This document shows positions 1-25,029 of a stretch of 64,000 nucleotides of DNA, in pieces. The notes beneath the pieces were generated by a model that did no database searches, was not told the DNA's origin, and saw only the letters and a list, made by a program, of their open reading frames with translations. Origin of the DNA: Caulobacter sp. (GTDB lineage Bacteria; Pseudomonadota; Alphaproteobacteria; Caulobacterales; Caulobacteraceae); the NCBI GenBank assembly GCA_017744495.1, contig JAGIBE010000133.1:6998-70997 (forward strand), written 5' to 3'. The position numbers and the translations under genes were made by a program. The stretch's first letter is position 1, and each line of letters starts with the position of its first letter.

Positions 1-511
1 GGTCACGATCGTTGTGCGTCTGGGTGCGCACGGCCCCGCCCACCCATAGGCGCGGCATGACCTCGGGCGGCAGGAATGGACTGGGGTTCTGGCGCACGAA
101 GGCCGGCATGTGGCTGGCCAGGGGCAGCATCTGAATGGCCACGAACGGCGCGGCCGGATCGCCCAGCAGCCGCTCGATGCGGTCCAGGGTCTCGCCGACT
201 CCCGCCTGGCGCTTTGAGAAGGCGAACTCGCGCAGGTCCGCGCCGTAGCCGAACCGGCCGCCGGTGGCGGCGGGGGCTTCCATGACCGGGGCCGCGGCGC
301 CGGTGTCCATCAGCTTCAGATAGACGTTGAGGGCGGCGGGACCCTGGCGGCCGGCGGCCAGGGCCGGCCAGGCGTCCAGCAGGCCCTTGATCACCACCGG
401 CCGCTCGGCGCGGACGATCGCCTCGAACTCGGCGGGCGAGGCGCATGCGGCCACGCCCACGCGCGGCAGGGCGTCGATATCACACGTCTGGATCACGCCG
501 CCGCCGTCCAT
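1..511 (-). CDS. Cupin-like/JmjC-type Fe(II) oxygenase, partial (C-terminus beyond left edge)
   Basis: Not in the ORF track because it runs off the window; I translated it by hand. The ATG at 511 overlaps the TGA of the upstream halogenase paralogue (TGATG), so the two are probably translationally coupled. The visible 170 residues match the N-terminal two thirds of the cupin-like protein at 23998-25029: an RPVVIKGLLDAWP opening (here residues 38-50) and an LWVGGAVRTQTHNDRD segment. H166-N-D168 is the HxD half of a 2-His-1-carboxylate iron site; the distal His would lie outside the window. By family, such proteins are 2-oxoglutarate-dependent hydroxylases or close relatives. The substrate is unknown. 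It is the last visible gene of the TBDR1-halogenase operon. The listed ORF 3..446 is an out-of-frame shadow. Confidence 0.8.
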   Translation of the reverse strand, partial: MDGGGVIQTCDIDALPRVGVAACASPAEFEAIVRAERPVVIKGLLDAWPALAAGRQGPAALNVYLKLMDTGAAAPVMEAPAATGGRFGYGADLREFAFSKRQAGVGETLDRIERLLGDPAAPFVAIQMLPLASHMPAFVRQNPSPFLPPEVMPRLWVGGAVRTQTHNDRD

Positions 512-1989
512 CAGCAGAAGCTTTCCAGATAGAGGTCGTGGGTCGGCTGCCTCAGCGCCTGGTCCTTGATGAAGGACAGGATGCGCTGGAACTCGCCCTT
601 GATGGTCTCGGGCGGAGTGCGGTCGATCATCGGGGCGTAGGTCTCCGGCGTCAGGCCATGACCCGTGAACAGGGCCCGCCAGCTGTCGGCGACGAAGGTC
701 TCGTGCTCGGACGGCGGGATCTCGCCGCGCGCCCGGAAGACGGCGATCTTGTGGGCCAGCACGTCGGAGGCGGTCGCCGCGCGAGCCCGCTCCCAGAACG
801 GCGCCTTGGCGTAACGGTTGGCGACGTAGTGGGCCGACTGGAAGTCGCGCAGGCGCTCATAGGCCTCGCGGACCGTATCGTTGTAGGCCGAGCGCTCGGC
901 GGCGAACTCGGCCGCCACCGGGAACAGTGACAGCAAGTGCACCAGCCCCAGCTGCACCGCCTGCAGGTCGACGCCGTGGACGGGATCGAAGGCGCAGGCC
1001 GCCTCGCCGATGGCGACGCAGTTGCGGCTCCAGGCCTGGACGCGGCGGCCGGGGTCGCTGACCGAGACGACGGCGTCGCCCAGGGCCAGGCCCGACACGC
1101 GAGCGGCCATCTCGAAGGCTTGGTCGTCCGTGCACAGATCGCCCGCATAGACCTGGATCACATGGGTCGCCGCCTGGTTGGGATGCAGCCCTACCCAACC
1201 GCGCGCCCAGGCGCGGATGTCGGCATAGGGCGGCAGCGAGGCGAAGCGCGGCCCCTGGGCCCGCAACACCCGGTCGGCCGGAAAGTGCGCGCGCCAGCTC
1301 TCGCGCGCCACGCCCAGGGCGGTCATCAGCACGGCTTCTACGCCGGTGGCGTCGACGAACAGGTCGCCCGCGACGCTGCGCCCTTCGCCCAGCTCGAGGG
1401 CGGCGATGTCGCCGTCGGCGTCGAGCGTGGGCGCGGCCGACAGGGCCTGGTGCAACGTGACGCCCAACCGCTTGGCCAAGCCCTTCAGCGTCGCGGCATA
1501 GGCCAGGGCCGGCAGGTGATAGCCGTAGTCGGCGCGGCCGAAGACCTCGGTCTCCTCGTCGGGCAGCAGCACCCGCCCCTGGCGGGCGGCGGCGGCGGTC
1601 AGGGAGAACTCGTCCAGCGCCACGTTCAGGCCCAGGCCTCGGGCTTTCAGCCAGAACGGGAAGAAGTCACGGCTGTCGATCGGCGCGCCATAGGCGCCGT
1701 GAGCGTGGAAGAAGGACGGAGTGGCGCCCGAGACGTCGGCGAAGTTCTGGCCCAGCGAGAAAGCGCCGCGCGTGGCGCGCAGCACGTCCGCCTCGTCCAG
1801 GCCCAGCATCCCATGCAGGGCCTCGAGCGGCGGCAGACTGGCGTGGACGTCGGCGGACGTGAGGCGGGTCGGCAGCTCGACCGCCGTGACACTGACCCCG
1901 GCCGGACGCAGGGCCGCGCGCAACACGCAGGCCGACAGCCACAGGGCCGCGTCGCGTCCGACCACGACGATGCTGCTGGGCGCGCTCAT
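511..1989 (-). CDS. Degenerate tryptophan-halogenase-family flavoprotein paralogue
   Basis: About 492 aa. The ATG at 1989 shares a base with the TGA of the upstream halogenase; a GTG at 1992 is an alternative start. Overall length, position and scattered similarity place it in the tryptophan halogenase (PrnA-like) family, but the diagnostic motifs are altered. The N-terminal FAD motif reads VVVGRDAALWLSA instead of GGGTAGW. The segment holding the halogenase lysine reads FSLGQNFADV instead of FKLGIEFRDW. The WxWxIP signature is absent (WARGWVGLHP in about that place). The LEPLEST segment is replaced by FDPVHGVDLQ. The upstream gene keeps all of these. I infer it is not an active halogenase; it could be a partner subunit, a substrate-binding homologue, or a flavoprotein with another activity. 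Confidence 0.75.
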   Translation of the reverse strand: MSAPSSIVVVGRDAALWLSACVLRAALRPAGVSVTAVELPTRLTSADVHASLPPLEALHGMLGLDEADVLRATRGAFSLGQNFADVSGATPSFFHAHGAYGAPIDSRDFFPFWLKARGLGLNVALDEFSLTAAAARQGRVLLPDEETEVFGRADYGYHLPALAYAATLKGLAKRLGVTLHQALSAAPTLDADGDIAALELGEGRSVAGDLFVDATGVEAVLMTALGVARESWRAHFPADRVLRAQGPRFASLPPYADIRAWARGWVGLHPNQAATHVIQVYAGDLCTDDQAFEMAARVSGLALGDAVVSVSDPGRRVQAWSRNCVAIGEAACAFDPVHGVDLQAVQLGLVHLLSLFPVAAEFAAERSAYNDTVREAYERLRDFQSAHYVANRYAKAPFWERARAATASDVLAHKIAVFRARGEIPPSEHETFVADSWRALFTGHGLTPETYAPMIDRTPPETIKGEFQRILSFIKDQALRQPTHDLYLESFC

Positions 1990-3554
1990 CACGACACCGC
2001 CCGGACGGCTTCAGCCGGCCCGCCCAGGTCGCCCGGGGCGTAGCGGGCCAGGAACGCGGCGTGACCGGTCATGGTCGCGACGTTGGCGTCGATCCGCCCC
2101 TTCAGGTCGGCGAGGCGCGCTTCCAGGTCGTCCAGCGTCAGGCTCTCGGCCAGCCGGTCGTGGGCGTGCGGCATGAGCCCCTGCCCTTCCAGCACCGACA
2201 GCCAGCTGTCGCGCGAGAACAGGCCGTACTTGTAGTCCGGCAGGGCGGCCCGACGCTCGAACAGCTCTATCTTGGCCGCGAGGCTGTCGGGGATCGGCAT
2301 GGTCCGCACGTGGTCCCACAGCGGTTCGCCGAACCGGCTGTTGGCGCGGTAGTGCAGGATGAGGAAGTCGCGGATCCGGTCGTACTGAATCTCGAACAGG
2401 CGGTTGAACTCGGCGACCAGCCGAGGGTCCATGCGGTCGCCCTCGCCGGGCGTCGGCATCAGGTTGACGAGGTCGATCACGGCGGCCTGGACCAGGAAGA
2501 TGCTGGTCGACTCCAGAGGCTCCAGGAACCCGCTGGACAGGCCCATGGCCACGACGTTGCGCGCCCAGCCGGTCAGGCGGCGGCCGGCTTGGAAGCGCAG
2601 CAGGCGGGGCTCGTCCAGCGCCGGACCGTCCAGCTTGGCCAGCAGGGTCTCGCGGGCCTGGCCTTCGTCGATGAAGGCGCTGGAGAACACGTAGCCGTTG
2701 CCGGTGCGGTGCTGCAGCGGGATGCGCCAGCGCCAGCCGCCCAGGTCGGCGGTGGCCCGAGTGTAGGGCGTCAGGCCGTCGCCGCCGGTGACGCAGGGCA
2801 CGGCCAGGGCGCGGTCGCAGGGCAGCCACCGGCTCCAGTCCTGCCAGGCCACGCCCATCTGGCCGGCCAGCAACAGCGAGCGGAAGCCGGTGCAGTCGAT
2901 GAAGAGGTCGCCCTGGATCACCGCACCCGACTTCAGGGTCAGGCTCCGCACCTGGCCCGAGGCCGTGTCGAGGGCGATGTCGGCGACCATCCCCTCGATC
3001 CGGGTCACGCCCCGCGCGGTCGCCCAGCGCCGCAGGAACCCCGCATAGAGGCTGGCGTCGAAATGGTAGGCGTAGGCGAAGGTCGAGCGGATCGACTTGT
3101 CGTCCTGGTTCGGAAACTCGAAGGCGTTCGCCCGGCACGCGGCCACGGCGTACGAATAGGCCTGAAGCGGCGCGACCTCGCGCCCGGCCAGCTTGGCCCG
3201 CGTCCAATGGTGCTGGAAGTCGCCCCCGTTCCACGGCTCCCCGAATGTGCCGAACGGGTGGATGTAGCAGTCGCCGGGGCGGTTCCAGTCGCGGAATTCG
3301 ATGCCCAGCTTGAAGGTTCCCTGAGTCTCGCGCAGGAACTGGGCCTCGTCGATCCCCAGCATGTCGTTGAAGGTCTTGATGTGCGGCAGGGTGGCTTCGC
3401 CGACCCCCACCGTGCCGATCTCGTCGGACTCGATCAGGGTCAGGTCATAGGCCTTGGGATCCAGCAGCCGCGTCAGTCCGGCCGCGCACATCCAGCCCGC
3501 CGTGCCGCCGCCGACGATCACGACCTTCAGGGTCGCGCCCTTGTCTGTCTGCAT
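1989..3554 (-). CDS. Flavin-dependent tryptophan halogenase family protein
   Basis: 521 aa. By family, it uses FADH2 from a separate reductase, O2 and halide to make HOX, which a conserved lysine guides to an aromatic substrate. Visible motifs are GGGTAGW at about residues 15-21, the lysine in FKLGIEF (K82), GWRWRIP in the middle and LEPLEST with the conserved Glu in the C-terminal half. Length fits the family (500-540 aa). The ATG is preceded by GGGAGA. It follows the TBDR by 72 bp, with a GC-rich stem-loop between, and overlaps the degenerate paralogue downstream. TBDR-linked halogenases such as BrvH of Brevundimonas act on indoles in vitro, but their physiological substrate is not established. 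No flavin reductase gene is visible nearby. Confidence 0.9.
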   Translation of the reverse strand: MQTDKGATLKVVIVGGGTAGWMCAAGLTRLLDPKAYDLTLIESDEIGTVGVGEATLPHIKTFNDMLGIDEAQFLRETQGTFKLGIEFRDWNRPGDCYIHPFGTFGEPWNGGDFQHHWTRAKLAGREVAPLQAYSYAVAACRANAFEFPNQDDKSIRSTFAYAYHFDASLYAGFLRRWATARGVTRIEGMVADIALDTASGQVRSLTLKSGAVIQGDLFIDCTGFRSLLLAGQMGVAWQDWSRWLPCDRALAVPCVTGGDGLTPYTRATADLGGWRWRIPLQHRTGNGYVFSSAFIDEGQARETLLAKLDGPALDEPRLLRFQAGRRLTGWARNVVAMGLSSGFLEPLESTSIFLVQAAVIDLVNLMPTPGEGDRMDPRLVAEFNRLFEIQYDRIRDFLILHYRANSRFGEPLWDHVRTMPIPDSLAAKIELFERRAALPDYKYGLFSRDSWLSVLEGQGLMPHAHDRLAESLTLDDLEARLADLKGRIDANVATMTGHAAFLARYAPGDLGGPAEAVRAVS

Positions 3555-3626: not shown

Positions 3627-6600
3627 CTAGTACTTGAAGCGGATGCCCAGCTGGACACGCCGGTCGTTGCGGATCCACGACGAGTCGATCTTCACCGGCT
3701 TGGCGCCGGGGGTCAGGGCCGAGTCACCGAAGACCTGCTGCTGGAAGACCGTGGTCGTATCGAGCAGGTTCGAGCCGTCCAGCGACACTTCGATATGATC
3801 GTTGACCTGGTAACGGATCGAGCCGTCCAGGAACCCGGCGCCCTTCTGGTACATCGGCAGGCCGATGCAGCAGTCGAGGTTGTTGGTCAGGAACGACGAG
3901 CGCCAGCTGTAGGCCAGGCGCATGGCGATCGGGCCCTTCTCGTACAGGCCCACGAGGTTGTAGGCGTCGTCCGAGATGCCGGCCAGGCGATGGCTGTCGA
4001 TCACCGCCCCGTTGACCTGCAGGCCGCCGCCGAAGGCGACCGTGCCGCCGGCCGCGTAGCCCGGCTGGGTGGCCAGGTTGGAGTTGTGGATGTCTTCCTG
4101 CTTGGTATGGGTGTAGTTGGCCTGGATTCCGAGGCCGTCCCACGGACTGGGCAGGAAGTCGAAGAAGGTCTGGTAAGCCACTTCGAAGCCGGTCAGCTCG
4201 CCGCCCCCGTTGCCGTTGCGCGGGCCGCGAACCAGGACGTTCTGGGTCGAGCCGTTGTTGGTGAACGAACGCAGGAACTCGCCGTAGGCGATGCTGCCGT
4301 TCAACTTCTTGTAGAAGACGTCGAAGGTGAACGAGCTGCTTTCGGTGAAGTAGTGCTCGAAGGCCAGGTCGAACTGGTCGGCGGTGATCGGCCGCAGCGC
4401 GCCGAAGCCGGAGTCGGCGTTGAACTGGAAGTTGAAGCCCTTGACGTTGGACGCCACGTGCGGAGCGTTCGGGTCCTTCCAGATCACGTACGGCGAGTTC
4501 GGCGAGGTGTCGGTCGATGGCACCTGGACGCCGACGAAGTTGCGCAGCAGGCCGAAGTCCGGCCGCGACATGGCGCGCGAGGCGGCGAAGCGCACGAAGC
4601 TCTTGTCGCTCAGGCCGAAGCGGACGTTCAGGCTGGGCAGCCAGTTGTCGTGCTTGCCGCTGAAGTCGTTGTCCGCGCCGCCGCCGTTGCTGAAGGCCAG
4701 CAGGTCAGGCGTCAGCCAGCACGAGATGTTGGTGACCGAGTTGGGCCCCAGCGGCGCCGAGCACGGCGTGGTGGCGGCCGAGGTGTACCAGGTGCTGGTC
4801 GGGAAGGCGACGCCGCCCGAGCTGGTGGTCTTGGTCTGGACGAAGCGCAGGCCGATGTTGCCCTGGACGGTGACGCCGTTGAAGATCGTCGTGTCGTCGC
4901 CGCCGAAGCGCAACATGCCGTAGGCGGCCATGGTCTCTTCCTCGACATCGACCATTTCCGGATCGATGAAGCAGCCCTCGGTGTTGGTCGTGCGCTCGCA
5001 GAGCGGGGTCCAGGCCATCGGCGAGTTGGTGGTCTTGCCGCTCAGGGCCCGGATCAGGCCGTCGTGGTCCGCCAGGGTGGCCTTGCTCAGGAACACCAAG
5101 TCGTTGTTGGGGAACACCTTGCCGTCATAGAAGTCGCCCAGGCCGGCGACGCTCCAGATGCCGGCGCCATAGCCTTTGAAGTCGCCCGCGTGGCCGCAGG
5201 CGGCCGGATAGGGCTGGGGCGTGGTGTTGTCGATGTTGAAGCCCGGGCCGTTGCAGTTCCACGGGGCGGCCACCGGCGACCAGTTGTAGGTCGAATAGCG
5301 GACCTTCTGCTTGCGGTCGGCGTAGCGCACCCCGACCTTCAGCGAGTTGAGCCAGCCGCCTTCCGCGAACTCGTATTCGCCGTCGGCCCGCAGGGCCAGT
5401 TCGTGGGCGTCGTTGTCCTCGTAGTGGTCCTGGATGAACGGGATCCAGTAGTTGTGCGGGTTCGACAGGAAGCCCGGGGCGTAGTTCACGTTCGAGCCCG
5501 GCTGCAGGGTGATCTGCGGCGTGCCCTTGCCGTTCACCCTGTACTGGGCGTCGGCCATCGTGCGGTTGGCCACCAGGATGTCGTAGTTGTTGGTGTTGGC
5601 GTCGATGTACTGGAGGTCGAACTGGGTGTGCAGCCGGTCGTTGATGTCCCACTGCAGGTTGGCCGACAGGTCGCTGGTGCCTTCGGAGTGGTCGAAGTTG
5701 CGGGCCTGGTTCTCGATGTAGAGGCCTTCGCGCTGGGTGGCGCAAGCCGAGCCGGCGCCGCAGTAGTTGACGAAGGGCAGGCCCGGGACCGCCGAGCCGC
5801 GGTTGATGTTGTCCTGGGTGCTGGAGCCCCAGTCGCCGGTCGGCTGGGTCAGGATGCCGGAGGTCAGCATGCCGTCCGGGCCGAAGGTGAAGGCCGGCGC
5901 GCCCTGGGCCGGAGCGATGAAGGCCGTGGTCTGGGGCGAATAGGCCGGCGCGGCCCACAGGCCGAACATCACGACGTTGGTGCTGCGCTCCAGCCAGGCG
6001 TTCTTGTACTTGGAGTCGTTGTACTGGGCCTTGAAGCGGACGGTGCCGTCGTTGTTCTCGTACTGGACGGCCAGGGCCGTGCCCTTGCGGACGCGGTCAT
6101 ACTCGACCTGCGAGTAGTTGACTTGGTCGGGCATGTAGACCCAGCCCGTTCCGCCGTACGGATTGGCCGTGCAGGGGATCGAGCCGTCGGCGTTGACGAT
6201 CGCCTTGCCGCTGGCGTCGTTCATGCCGGCCGAGCAGAAGGCGCCGATGCGCTGCATCACCACGCCTTCGGTCTGGGTCAGCACGTGCGAATAGGCGTAG
6301 TCGGCCATCACGCCGATGCGGCCGAAGTCGGTGTCCCAGTTCTTGCTGACGATGCCCGAATATTCGTAGGTGACCTTGTCGGAGCGGTTGCCGTAGTTGG
6401 CCTTGCCCGACAGCGAGATCACCTGGTCCTTGGCGTCGAACGGCAGGCGGGTGCGCAGGTTGATCGTGCCGGCGATGCCGCCTTCGATCATCTCGGCCGT
6501 CTGGTTCTTGTAGCTGTCGACGCCGGCCATCAGTTCCGGCGAGATGTCGTTGAAGTTCAGGCCACGCGCGGCGTCGGCCGAAAAGCTGTCGCGGCCGTTG

Positions 6601-7004
6601 AACTCGGTGCGCACCTGGGTCAGGCCGCGGATCAGCACGCCGGCCGGTTCGGCCGAAAAGTGCGAGCTGTCGTCGCTGGACTGCAGGCGGGACACCGTGA
6701 TGCCCGGCACGCGCTGCAGCGCCTCGGCGACCGACTTGTCAGGGAAGGCGCCGATGTCGGTGGCGGTGATGGAGTCGACGACGGTGTCGGCGTTCTTCTT
6801 GATCTGCTGCGAGGTTTCCAGCGACTTGCGCACGCCCACGACGACGACTTCATCGACCGTGGCGGCGTCGCTCGTGGACTTATCCTGCGCGAAGGCCGGC
6901 GCGGCGGCGCCCATGACGCCCCCAAAGGCCCCCAGCGCCGCGATCGCCGCCAGCGACACCCCGCCGCGCAGCAGCGCCTTGCGGCGGACAGTGAACTTGC
7001 TCAT
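3627..7004 (-). CDS. TonB-dependent receptor (TBDR1)
   Basis: 1125 aa using the ATG at 7004 (MSKFTVRRK), which has a GGGAGA ribosome site and a signal peptide ending at AAAPAFAQ. The track start at 7202 adds 66 implausible residues. After the signal come a TonB-box-like VDEVVVVGVRKSLE, a plug domain (AEALQRVPGITVSR), a roughly 900-residue outer-membrane barrel and a terminal aromatic (IRFKY). The size and the DIGAFPDKSVAEALQRVPG plug are typical of the large Caulobacter/Xanthomonas-type receptors used for carbohydrates and other oligomers. It is the first gene of an operon with two halogenase-family proteins and a cupin-like oxygenase, so its ligand may be the substrate they act on. Palindromic sites in the upstream 600 bp imply regulation. 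Confidence 0.93.
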   Translation of the reverse strand: MSKFTVRRKALLRGGVSLAAIAALGAFGGVMGAAAPAFAQDKSTSDAATVDEVVVVGVRKSLETSQQIKKNADTVVDSITATDIGAFPDKSVAEALQRVPGITVSRLQSSDDSSHFSAEPAGVLIRGLTQVRTEFNGRDSFSADAARGLNFNDISPELMAGVDSYKNQTAEMIEGGIAGTINLRTRLPFDAKDQVISLSGKANYGNRSDKVTYEYSGIVSKNWDTDFGRIGVMADYAYSHVLTQTEGVVMQRIGAFCSAGMNDASGKAIVNADGSIPCTANPYGGTGWVYMPDQVNYSQVEYDRVRKGTALAVQYENNDGTVRFKAQYNDSKYKNAWLERSTNVVMFGLWAAPAYSPQTTAFIAPAQGAPAFTFGPDGMLTSGILTQPTGDWGSSTQDNINRGSAVPGLPFVNYCGAGSACATQREGLYIENQARNFDHSEGTSDLSANLQWDINDRLHTQFDLQYIDANTNNYDILVANRTMADAQYRVNGKGTPQITLQPGSNVNYAPGFLSNPHNYWIPFIQDHYEDNDAHELALRADGEYEFAEGGWLNSLKVGVRYADRKQKVRYSTYNWSPVAAPWNCNGPGFNIDNTTPQPYPAACGHAGDFKGYGAGIWSVAGLGDFYDGKVFPNNDLVFLSKATLADHDGLIRALSGKTTNSPMAWTPLCERTTNTEGCFIDPEMVDVEEETMAAYGMLRFGGDDTTIFNGVTVQGNIGLRFVQTKTTSSGGVAFPTSTWYTSAATTPCSAPLGPNSVTNISCWLTPDLLAFSNGGGADNDFSGKHDNWLPSLNVRFGLSDKSFVRFAASRAMSRPDFGLLRNFVGVQVPSTDTSPNSPYVIWKDPNAPHVASNVKGFNFQFNADSGFGALRPITADQFDLAFEHYFTESSSFTFDVFYKKLNGSIAYGEFLRSFTNNGSTQNVLVRGPRNGNGGGELTGFEVAYQTFFDFLPSPWDGLGIQANYTHTKQEDIHNSNLATQPGYAAGGTVAFGGGLQVNGAVIDSHRLAGISDDAYNLVGLYEKGPIAMRLAYSWRSSFLTNNLDCCIGLPMYQKGAGFLDGSIRYQVNDHIEVSLDGSNLLDTTTVFQQQVFGDSALTPGAKPVKIDSSWIRNDRRVQLGIRFKY

Positions 7005-7319
7005 CCCGTTCTCCCTAATTTTTCTGCCCGCGCCCTGATCGCGCGGGTTCTTTTTGATGAAGCCGCGCAGCCCCTCCCGGAGCGGCGCGTAGACCCCTGC
7101 ACCCTCGGTTCGGCCCGCGCCCGCAGGACGCGCCGAACCGTGAATTCCGTTGAAGATGTCGGCCGCACAGGACGCGCCTCGACACGATGAGCGTCCGGTC
7201 ACCCCGACCAGAATCGCTCGCGGGGCGTTCGGCCCCGTAAGTCCCCTCCCCTCCTCTTCGACGCGGCGTTCGCCGTTGTCCGTTCCGCCGCGAGCCCCTC
7301 ACCCCTCGGTTTCGGTTCT

Positions 7320-22489: not shown

Positions 22490-23980
22490 TCAGGACGCCG
22501 GAATCCCGCAATACCGCTCGAGGAAGGCCTGGTGTCCGGGCAGGCCGCCGACGGCCCGGGCGATGTTGGCGCCGAGGTCCGACAGCGCCCCGCGCAGCTG
22601 GTCGGGCGGCATCAGGCGGCCCATCTGGTGATAGCCGGTCGGCTCCAACCGCTGCCCCAGCATAACCTGCAGCCACGAGTCCACCTGGAACAGCTCGCCC
22701 GGCGCCTGGAAAGCCTGAGCGCTTTCGCGGAACAGCTCGATGCGGTGGGCCAGGCTGTCGGGGACGTCCATGGTCCGGCAGCGATCCCAGAACGGGCTGT
22801 CGGTTCGCTCGGTCAGCTTGTAGTGCAGGATGATGAAGTCGCGGATCTTCTCCAGCTCGTCGACGGCCTGCTGGTTGTAGCGGGCGATCACCGCCTCGCT
22901 GAATCCGGTGAACGGGAACAGCTGCATCAGCCGCGTCACGCCGATCATGATCAGGTGGATCGAGGTCGATTCCAGCGGCTCGACGAAGCCGCTGGCCAGG
23001 CCCAGGGCGACGCAGTTCTTGGACCAGGTCTTCAGCCGCCGGCCGGTGCGGTAGCGGATGACGCGCGGCTCGATCAGGCGCTCGCCGTCCAGGGCCTCCA
23101 GCAGGGTGGCCCGCGCCTCGTCGTCCGACATGTACTCGTTGCTGTAGACCAGGCCGTTGCCGACGCGATGCTGCAGCGGAATCTTCCAGCGCCAACCGGC
23201 CTTATGGGCGATCGCGCGCGTGTAGGGCACGGCGGAACCGGTGGACTTGGTCTGGACCGCCAGGGCGCTGTTGGTCGGCAGCCAGTGGCTCCAGTCCTCG
23301 TAGCCGGCCTTCAGGGTCTGCTCGATCAGGAGCCCTCGGAAGCCCGTGCAGTCGATGAAGAGATCGCCTTCGACGAGATCGCCGTTCTCCATGGCCAGGG
23401 CCTGGATGAAGCCGCTCTCGGCGTCCTGTCGGACGCCGGCGATCTTGCCCTCGACCCGCTTGACGCCCAGGGCCTCGCTCATCCTGCGCAGGAAGGCGCC
23501 GTAGAGCGTGGCGTCCAGGTGATAGGCGTAGTTCAGCTCGGGGCCCTCGCCCACCGAGAACTTCTCCGCCTCGGCCGCCTTCAGCTCGAAGCAGTAGTCG
23601 CCCAGTTCGCCGCCGAACCCGGCCGCCTTGGCCTGCAGCCAGAAGTGATGGAAGCCGCCCATCCAGTTCGACTTCCCGACCTGGCCGAACGAGTGGATGT
23701 AGCGGTCGCCGATCCGGGCCCAGTTCTCGAACGAGATGCCCAGCTTGAACGTCGCCTGGGTGGCGCGCATGAAGGCCGGCTCGTCGACGCCCAGCAGGGC
23801 GTTGAAGGTGCGAGCCGTGGGGATGGTGGACTCGCCCACCCCGACCGTGCCGATCTCGTCGGATTCCACGAGGGTGATGTCGAGCAGCGGGCCCAGCTGC
23901 TTGGCCAGGGCCGCGGCCGCCATCCATCCCGCGGTGCCGCCGCCGGCGACCACCACCCTCTTCACGACCTGTTCCTGCAC
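22490..23980 (-). CDS. Flavin-dependent tryptophan halogenase family protein
   Basis: 496 aa using the GTG at 23980, which has AGGAGA in front; the track start at 24298 extends through the upstream cupin gene in the wrong frame. GGGTAGW sits at residues 13-19, the catalytic lysine in FKLGISF is K79 (the PrnA number), GWRWKIP is present and VEPLESTSIHLI carries the conserved Glu. All halogenase signatures are intact. It is the last gene of SapC -> cupin-like -> halogenase, 17 bp after the cupin stop. By family it needs FADH2 supplied by a reductase, none of which is seen here. The substrate may be an indole-bearing molecule taken up through TBDR2; that is inference. Confidence 0.92.
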   Translation of the reverse strand: MQEQVVKRVVVAGGGTAGWMAAAALAKQLGPLLDITLVESDEIGTVGVGESTIPTARTFNALLGVDEPAFMRATQATFKLGISFENWARIGDRYIHSFGQVGKSNWMGGFHHFWLQAKAAGFGGELGDYCFELKAAEAEKFSVGEGPELNYAYHLDATLYGAFLRRMSEALGVKRVEGKIAGVRQDAESGFIQALAMENGDLVEGDLFIDCTGFRGLLIEQTLKAGYEDWSHWLPTNSALAVQTKSTGSAVPYTRAIAHKAGWRWKIPLQHRVGNGLVYSNEYMSDDEARATLLEALDGERLIEPRVIRYRTGRRLKTWSKNCVALGLASGFVEPLESTSIHLIMIGVTRLMQLFPFTGFSEAVIARYNQQAVDELEKIRDFIILHYKLTERTDSPFWDRCRTMDVPDSLAHRIELFRESAQAFQAPGELFQVDSWLQVMLGQRLEPTGYHQMGRLMPPDQLRGALSDLGANIARAVGGLPGHQAFLERYCGIPAS

Positions 23981-23997
23981 GGGCGTTCTCCTGGTCG

Positions 23998-25029
23998 TCA
24001 GCGGTTGAGGCGATTGAGCAGATAGGCCCGCAGCCGCCGGGCCTTGCGGTCGTCCATGGGGCCAAGGTCGCCGCGCGCGCCCTCGGGCAGGTGCGCGGCC
24101 GGCCGGTCGGCCGGGCCGAAGACGTAGTAGTCGAACAGGCGCTTCCAGGCCTGCTTCTCGAAGTCGGGTCGGTCGCGCAGGCTGAGCAGGCCGTGCAGCA
24201 GGGTGTTCATGGGCGAGTCCATGAAGCCGGGCGCGGCGTTCCACCAGTAGTTCACCAGCACGTTGAACGGGGCCAGGGCCTCGACCTGGTGCCACCACAG
24301 CGCCGGATAGACCAGCACGTCTCCCGGTTCGAGCTCGGCCACCTGAGCGGCGGCCAGGGCGTCCTTGAAGCGCGGATGGCGCTGGAAGTCCGGGGCGTCG
24401 AAGTCGACCATGCTGACCGCCTGGCCGCCCGGGGTCATGTCCAGCGGACCGGGATAGAGGTTCTCGACCTGCTCGGGCGGGAACAGGGTGAAGCGCCGCC
24501 GGCCCACCGCGCAGACGGCGATGTTGTTGGACATGTCGTAGTGGGCCGCCGCGACCGTGCGGTTGCCGATCCAGATGCTGGCCAGGGGCGTGGGGTCGCC
24601 CAGGCCGGTCAGGTCCAGGCCCAGGTCGTTCTCGGCCCGCAGGCCCGGCAGATAGGCGTCGATGTCGCTGGAGCCGATGTAGAGCGACGGCGCGCCGGAC
24701 TCGTCCAGGGTCTGCTCGATGCGCTCCAGGAAGGCCGGCAGCGGGGTGCGCTCGGTCTGGAAGTTCAGGCGGGTGACGGCCTCGTCATAGCCGAACCGGC
24801 CCTTGATCTCGGGCGCGCCAGTATAGCCGACGAAACGCTCGCCGCGATCGTGCGACAGCAGCTCGTCCATGGCCGCGCGAGGCGAGACCAGGCCGGCGCG
24901 CACCAGCGGCCAGTCGCGGGCCATGCCGCGGAAAATGGTCGGCGACTGCCGGGTCAGGATATCGTCGAACGGGATCTGGTCGGGCCTCAGCCCCTCGACG
25001 ACCGGCGTCCTGCGGGCGATGTCGATCAT
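23998..25029 (-). CDS. Cupin-like/JmjC-type Fe(II) oxygenase
   Basis: 343 aa. The iron site looks complete: H163-Y-D165 (the HxD motif, in VAAAHYDMSNN) and distal H247 (LWWHQVE), with a nearby ELEPGDVLVYPALWW strand typical of this cupin/JmjC branch. By family these are 2-oxoglutarate-dependent hydroxylases acting on proteins or small molecules, but the TBDR-linked members have no known substrate. It lies 13 bp after SapC and 17 bp before the halogenase, so all three are one transcription unit. It is homologous to the partial gene at 1-511, which makes the two operons parallel modules. Confidence 0.88.
   Translation of the reverse strand: MIDIARRTPVVEGLRPDQIPFDDILTRQSPTIFRGMARDWPLVRAGLVSPRAAMDELLSHDRGERFVGYTGAPEIKGRFGYDEAVTRLNFQTERTPLPAFLERIEQTLDESGAPSLYIGSSDIDAYLPGLRAENDLGLDLTGLGDPTPLASIWIGNRTVAAAHYDMSNNIAVCAVGRRRFTLFPPEQVENLYPGPLDMTPGGQAVSMVDFDAPDFQRHPRFKDALAAAQVAELEPGDVLVYPALWWHQVEALAPFNVLVNYWWNAAPGFMDSPMNTLLHGLLSLRDRPDFEKQAWKRLFDYYVFGPADRPAAHLPEGARGDLGPMDDRKARRLRAYLLNRLNR

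Follow-up and report, generated by a model that had tools for sequence, protein, structure and literature searches.

The product of the gene at positions 511–1989 is probably a true pseudoenzyme of the halogenase family, kept as the non-catalytic partner of the flavin-dependent halogenase (FDH) encoded just upstream of it. The gene lies in a 64,000-nucleotide stretch of Caulobacter sp. DNA, referred to here as the window. Every catalytic residue of the family has been lost from this protein, yet its conservation is about that of the enzyme, and a role as a helper subunit is therefore probable. The definition of a pseudoenzyme as a family member from which the catalytic motifs are absent (PMC10211241) fits the protein: the motifs are lost across the orthologs, the predicted fold is retained and the gene is under selection.

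The locus and the altered halogenase motifs

The host is a Caulobacter-like genome (85% complete, 290 contigs, 4.3 Mb), probably metagenome-assembled in view of its contig number and completeness. Its nearest named relative in the scan was Caulobacter sp. UNC358MFTsu5.1. The order of transcription is TBDR (7004–3627), FDH (3554–1989), 511–1989, cupin_8 and DUF6445, with GH97 and others further on. The genes and the altered sites are listed below.

3627–7004, minus strand: TonB-dependent receptor (TBDR), which opens the operon (mechanical ORF 3627–7202)
1989–3554, minus strand: intact FDH of 521 aa, every motif present; conserved as the upstream partner
511–1989, minus strand: pseudo-halogenase (putatively non-catalytic, halogenase fold), 492 aa, ATG 1989–1987, stop 511–513
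2–511, minus strand: cupin_8 (PF13621) protein, ATG at 511, continuing past the window edge
1939–1959, minus strand: former FAD-binding GxGxxG turn of the pseudo-halogenase, residues 11–17, GRDAALW (GGGTAGW in active FDHs; second Gly replaced by Asp13, third by Leu16)
1756–1758, minus strand: codon 78, Ser replacing the catalytic Lys (AFSLG versus TFKLG, by sequence comparison)
976–978, minus strand: codon 338, His replacing the catalytic Glu (PVHG versus PLES, by sequence comparison)

The start of the receptor (MSKFTV) was put at ~7004 because the N-terminus there was judged to be signal-peptide-like. The reading frames of the FDH and the pseudo-halogenase overlap by one base at the junction TGATG, and the stop of the pseudo-halogenase overlaps the cupin_8 start by one base. 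The cupin_8 gene (window 2–511; contig C133 near 7000) is broken by a stretch of Ns in the assembly.

Pfam assigns the 511–1989 product to PF04820 (Trp_halogenase) alone, with a full-length match (residues 7–459, 292 bits), and no NCBIfam model scores above its cut-off. The protein is 32% identical to the neighboring FDH. The host genome (G000) contains 17 matches to the Trp_halogenase family, including tandem arrays of up to four genes on contig C227; only the 511–1989 product and a second protein, L004, have a damaged active site, and one match, L017, is cut by a contig end.

In BrvH, which binds FAD and brominates indole, a lysine and a glutamate form the catalytic pair, the GxGxxG motif binds FAD, and the K83A substitution inactivates the enzyme (PMC5945002). 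The study of Xcc4156 describes a glutamate flanking the FAD loop as the sensor of FAD, and Fx.Px.Sx.G as the mark of the halide loop (PMC7336383); by our own assignment, made from the sequence, the FAD-sensing residue would be the glutamate of GVGE. Besides the sites listed above, WRWRIP (the WxWxIP motif) is changed to WVGLHP and GVGEAT to DVHAS in the pseudo-halogenase. An earlier note on this DNA had described the gene as lying directly behind an intact halogenase with a one-base overlap, its frame open over 492 codons, and as lacking GGGTAGW, the lysine segment, WxWxIP and the glutamate region, all four of which it saw in the two other halogenases of the window. These descriptions are confirmed; both other enzymes (1989–3554 and one within 22490–24298, minus strand) keep all motifs, and the loss of GVGE is added to the list.

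The same losses recur in the relatives, of which 62 distinct loci were left once identical proteins had been removed. These are mostly from Caulobacteraceae, and also from Sphingomonadaceae, Niveispirillum and gammaproteobacterial MAGs. The catalytic lysine (K79 of PrnA, K83 of BrvH), the catalytic glutamate (E346 of PrnA), the GVGE glutamate and the second tryptophan of WxWxIP are each present in 0/62 relatives versus 71/71 active paralogs. The catalytic glutamate is replaced by Asp in 38 relatives, His in 16 and Gly in 6, and the isoleucine of WxWxIP persists in one of the 62. In the 60 relatives with letters at the FAD turn, the second glycine is Asp in 51 and the third is never found (Leu or Ala in 58), versus 71/71 active paralogs that keep the third. 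The F, S and T of the halide loop are mostly gone among the 62. When the 125 columns conserved in active FDHs are followed into the pseudo clade, 41 are kept, 12 now conserve a different residue and 72 are lost or variable. As judged from these alignments, the losses in the 511–1989 product are far from chance. None of the 62 relatives has a lysine within three columns of the catalytic site, and across the whole protein no lysine is conserved in at least 59 of them, which argues against a migrated catalytic lysine; that possibility was rejected.

The AlphaFold2 model of the 511–1989 product has a pLDDT of 95.4 and a pTM of 0.93, although its 65-sequence alignment includes active FDHs and the model may therefore lean to the FDH fold. 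Comparison with solved structures by Foldseek gave BrvH, Xcc4156 and the Pseudoalteromonas L11 halogenase (PDB accession number 9luq) as the best matches (TM 0.92–0.94), with BrvH (TM 0.92–0.93) at the top. The model indicates with high confidence that the FDH fold is retained.

Distribution, selection and pairing with the upstream FDH

Eight other genomes of the genus carry orthologs of the pseudo-halogenase at 63–89% identity, and four more carry relatives at ~40%. A profile scan of 84,980 species genomes found the same lesion at 24 loci, partly in the same genomes as the genus set, in Caulobacter, Asticcacaulis, Sphingomonas, Niveispirillum, a Cellvibrionaceae MAG, an Oceanospirillales MAG and one unclassified proteobacterial MAG. 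Six Brevundimonas/Caulobacterales loci from the scan (L053–L055, L058–L060) were rejected as members of the pseudo clade, being ordinary intact FDHs. A family search gave matches in 51/299 Caulobacteraceae genomes; four of the 51 (G583, G605, G619 and G671, near 420 bits) were set aside because only ordinary FDHs were found there. When 385 genomes sampled evenly across the class were searched, with the four best candidates scored per genome, a single genome passed besides the window's own, and the gene is therefore rare outside the named groups; its occurrence outside Caulobacteraceae is based mainly on this sample and the 84,980-genome scan. Among the matches listed from plasmid records, nothing exceeded 34% identity to the pseudo-halogenase. 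Two genomes of the Asticcacaulis group (G567 and G579) carry three FDH/pseudo-FDH pairs each (L104–L106, L123, L127, L129).

The pseudo-halogenase is under purifying selection similar to that on its partner FDH. A codon model of eight Caulobacter sequences yielded an omega of 0.105 for the pseudo-halogenase versus 0.097 for the partner, and fixing omega at 1 worsened the fit by more than 500 log units for both genes. The frame is intact at all 62 loci. The pseudo-halogenase evolves faster than the FDH, with a mean pairwise identity of 42% versus 59%.

The gene immediately upstream is an intact FDH in 62/62 loci. The two reading frames overlap in 59 of these (by 4 nt in 41, by 8 in 12 and by 1 in 6), and in the remaining three they are at most 8 nt apart. 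Two operon layouts were seen, TBDR-FDH-pseudo-cupin_8-DUF6445 and TBDR-FDH-pseudo-FDH2, and the FDH/pseudo pair is constant across both while the surrounding genes vary. DUF6445 also recurs near FDH/pseudo/FDH2 operons (L099–L103, L106, L108, L119, L124, L126, L127, L135); together with cupin_8, it seems to be a regular accessory of the TonB-receptor operons. In the trees, the pseudo proteins are monophyletic, the upstream FDHs are monophyletic and their main groups match, and the pairwise identities of the two proteins correlate at 0.92. Orthologs of the partner FDH (at least 54% identity, a line drawn by judgement with which the tree agrees) occur in 22 genomes of the genus, and the pseudo gene is present in 21/21 that could be assessed. 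G029 was rejected as a case of a partner FDH without the pseudo gene, since its FDH stops 8 bases short of the contig end. In G050 the FDH and the pseudo gene sit on two different contig ends. The genetic partnership of the two genes is well supported. The close linkage and the matching trees show that the two genes are inherited together; these features, and the correlated rates, would be expected also of operon neighbors whose products never touch.

The second damaged protein of the host genome, L004, belongs to a related lineage in which shortened forms occur:

G000:C227:2271–3758: second non-catalytic FDH of the host genome (L004, also L131), between intact FDHs
L180:3009–4103, L181:2994–4118 and L183:3009–4190, with equivalents in L184–L191: shortened halogenase-fold proteins directly downstream of L005-type FDHs

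L004 is encoded behind the intact FDH L005, which is sister to the partner-FDH clade. It keeps GGG and the lysine, and has PLNG versus PLES and ALSTLP versus GVGEATLP. L004-like proteins were found in 12 genomes of the genus (the host and 11 others); the GGG turn and the lysine are mostly kept, GVGE and the catalytic glutamate are missing, and the WxWx(I/V)P motif persists in four. In other genomes, the slot behind the L005 orthologs is filled by proteins of 364–393 aa from which the lysine region and central strands are gone, with more than 100 residues lost. The model of a short form has a pLDDT of 92.4, and its best FDH matches reach TM 0.86–0.88 by query length. All non-catalytic forms fall on one side of a single tree branch. 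The most economical history has catalysis lost once in an ancestral FDH pair, which was then duplicated whole and eroded to differing degrees; long branches may group degraded sequences, and two independent losses are therefore still conceivable.

Role of the pseudo-halogenase

The reading that we favor is that of a pseudoenzyme retained as the partner of its FDH. In a common ancestor, an FDH paralog would have ceased to bind flavin and to halogenate, presumably no longer carrying FAD, and would then have been kept in an obligate, non-catalytic partnership with the FDH encoded immediately upstream. The overlapping stop and start may couple translation and so supply the two chains in about equal amounts. 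The chains would associate through the surface that ordinary FDHs use for the homodimer, and the resulting catalytic/non-catalytic heteromer would probably replace the usual homodimer. The dead chain could then stabilize or allosterically tune the active one, or help to hold a bulky substrate at the open pocket. Given the overlapping frames and the common fold, such a heteromer is the simplest use of the pair. BrvH elutes as a dimer in gel filtration (PMC5945002), FDH dimers recur in a similar arrangement across crystals (PMC7336383), and inactive paralogs that activate their partners through heterodimerization are known elsewhere (PMC10211241). The earlier note had likewise proposed a pseudoenzyme or partner chain with a kept fold, probably under selection, and had named a lysine and glutamate restored from elsewhere and loss of the gene in close relatives as findings that would count against it. 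Its proposal is the best supported one after fold prediction, estimation of omega across relatives and inspection of the 62 loci; no restored lysine was found in the relatives, and every assessable genome of the genus with the partner FDH has the pseudo gene.

A wider proposal, which we offer tentatively though it may well prove correct, is that these pairs are obligate two-chain halogenases. Duplication of an ancestral FDH would have produced one catalytic and one non-catalytic subunit, the pair would have spread and been copied whole inside TonB-receptor operons, and the enzyme would be the heteromer.

The strongest rival, unlikely in our estimate, is a free-standing, non-catalytic ligand binder, in which part of the FDH pocket would be kept to carry, sequester or sense a pathway substrate or halogenated product with no stable FDH complex. 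The histidine of the HPFG motif is retained in 50/62 relatives (the Phe is mostly Tyr), the clade-specific E430 and H444 adjoin the segment that lines the BrvH pocket, and pockets of the BrvH type are open and may accept large substrates (PMC5945002). Ligand binding alone, however, leaves unexplained the invariable adjacency to one FDH clade, the overlapping frames, and the existence of two pseudo lineages, each bound to its own FDH clade.

More doubtful still is a flavin-independent enzyme that acts on the substrate or product of the FDH, with a new active site built into the FDH scaffold. Six polar positions, H59, Q81, E365, Q384, E430 and H444, are specific to the pseudo clade and 90–97% conserved; they may belong to a new site for ligand binding or catalysis and in that respect speak against the partner model. 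Yet among the polar residues found in 59 or more of the 62 relatives, all but E365 and Q384 (60/62 each) are mostly present in active FDHs as well, and the set includes no His or Lys. Moreover, the degraded relative behind the sister FDH was kept after losing whole strands.

A flavoprotein of unusual chemistry, such as an oxidase or monooxygenase with essential residues supplied from other positions, is very improbable. Migrated residues do serve some pseudoenzymes (PMC10211241), and some nucleotide binding is conceivable in view of G11 and of E38, at the second strand's end, both of which are retained; this is a further point against the partner model. Parts of the chain weakly resemble LodB, GoxB and QhpG at the profile level (E 1e-6 to 1e-5). 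These are catalytic flavoproteins, however, and membership was rejected because the pseudo-halogenase scores far under their family cut-offs (25–27 bits versus NCBIfam cut-offs of 240–400); the intact neighboring FDH has a like weak similarity to QhpG and LodB. The replacement of the second and third glycines of the FAD turn, the loss of the GVGE glutamate and the halide loop, and the absence of a conserved lysine throughout all weigh against flavin chemistry. A decaying duplicate or sequencing artefact, although the paralog has lost catalytic residues and its sequence changes faster than that of the partner, was rejected as having next to no probability, given 62 intact frames, an omega of ~0.1, one ancient origin and a conserved obligate neighbor.

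If the partner reading is correct and the pair forms a heteromer, an active chain assayed alone may miss its native substrate, and if these are two-chain halogenases, any member studied singly would be only half of the enzyme in the assay. We know of no natural substrate for FDHs of the BrvH/Xcc4156 type, and co-expression of a natural pair would open that question to test. Because Pfam files these proteins under tryptophan halogenases, genome mining may choose a chain that does not halogenate. The series from near-complete to 364-aa proteins in a similar operon slot would be a natural record of an enzyme becoming a subunit.

Comparison with known halogenases and pseudoenzymes

The closest known protein is BrvH (PDB accession number 6frl), an indole FDH from Brevundimonas sp. 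BAL3, which is the top PDB sequence match of the 511–1989 product (227.7 bits) and whose gene also adjoins a second FDH gene (PMC5945002). BrvH has GxGxxG, K83, WxWxIP and E349, whereas the 511–1989 product lacks them all. Xcc4156 (PDB accession number 6y1w) and the Pseudoalteromonas L11 halogenase are the next-best matches and share the fold; both are described as halogenases, and Xcc4156 has the glutamate of the FAD loop and the catalytic lysine (PMC7336383). The tryptophan halogenases PrnA, RebH, PyrH and Thal also share the fold (TM ~0.9) at about 21–24% identity, but differ in their complete catalytic set and longer substrate-closing loops (PMC7336383).

Open-access papers were searched for halogenases that are inactive, heterodimeric or pseudoenzymes; within the limits of that literature, none described a non-catalytic FDH partner, and a review of pseudoenzymes names no halogenase (PMC10211241). 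The proposed working mode resembles that of the inactive AdoMet decarboxylase homolog, TbPRMT1-PRO and FAM20A, each an inactive paralog kept with an active partner (PMC10211241). Those proteins belong to other enzyme families and their complexes were shown experimentally, whereas the complex of the 511–1989 product is inferred. Pseudoenzyme partners are already known, and one for halogenases appears to be new.
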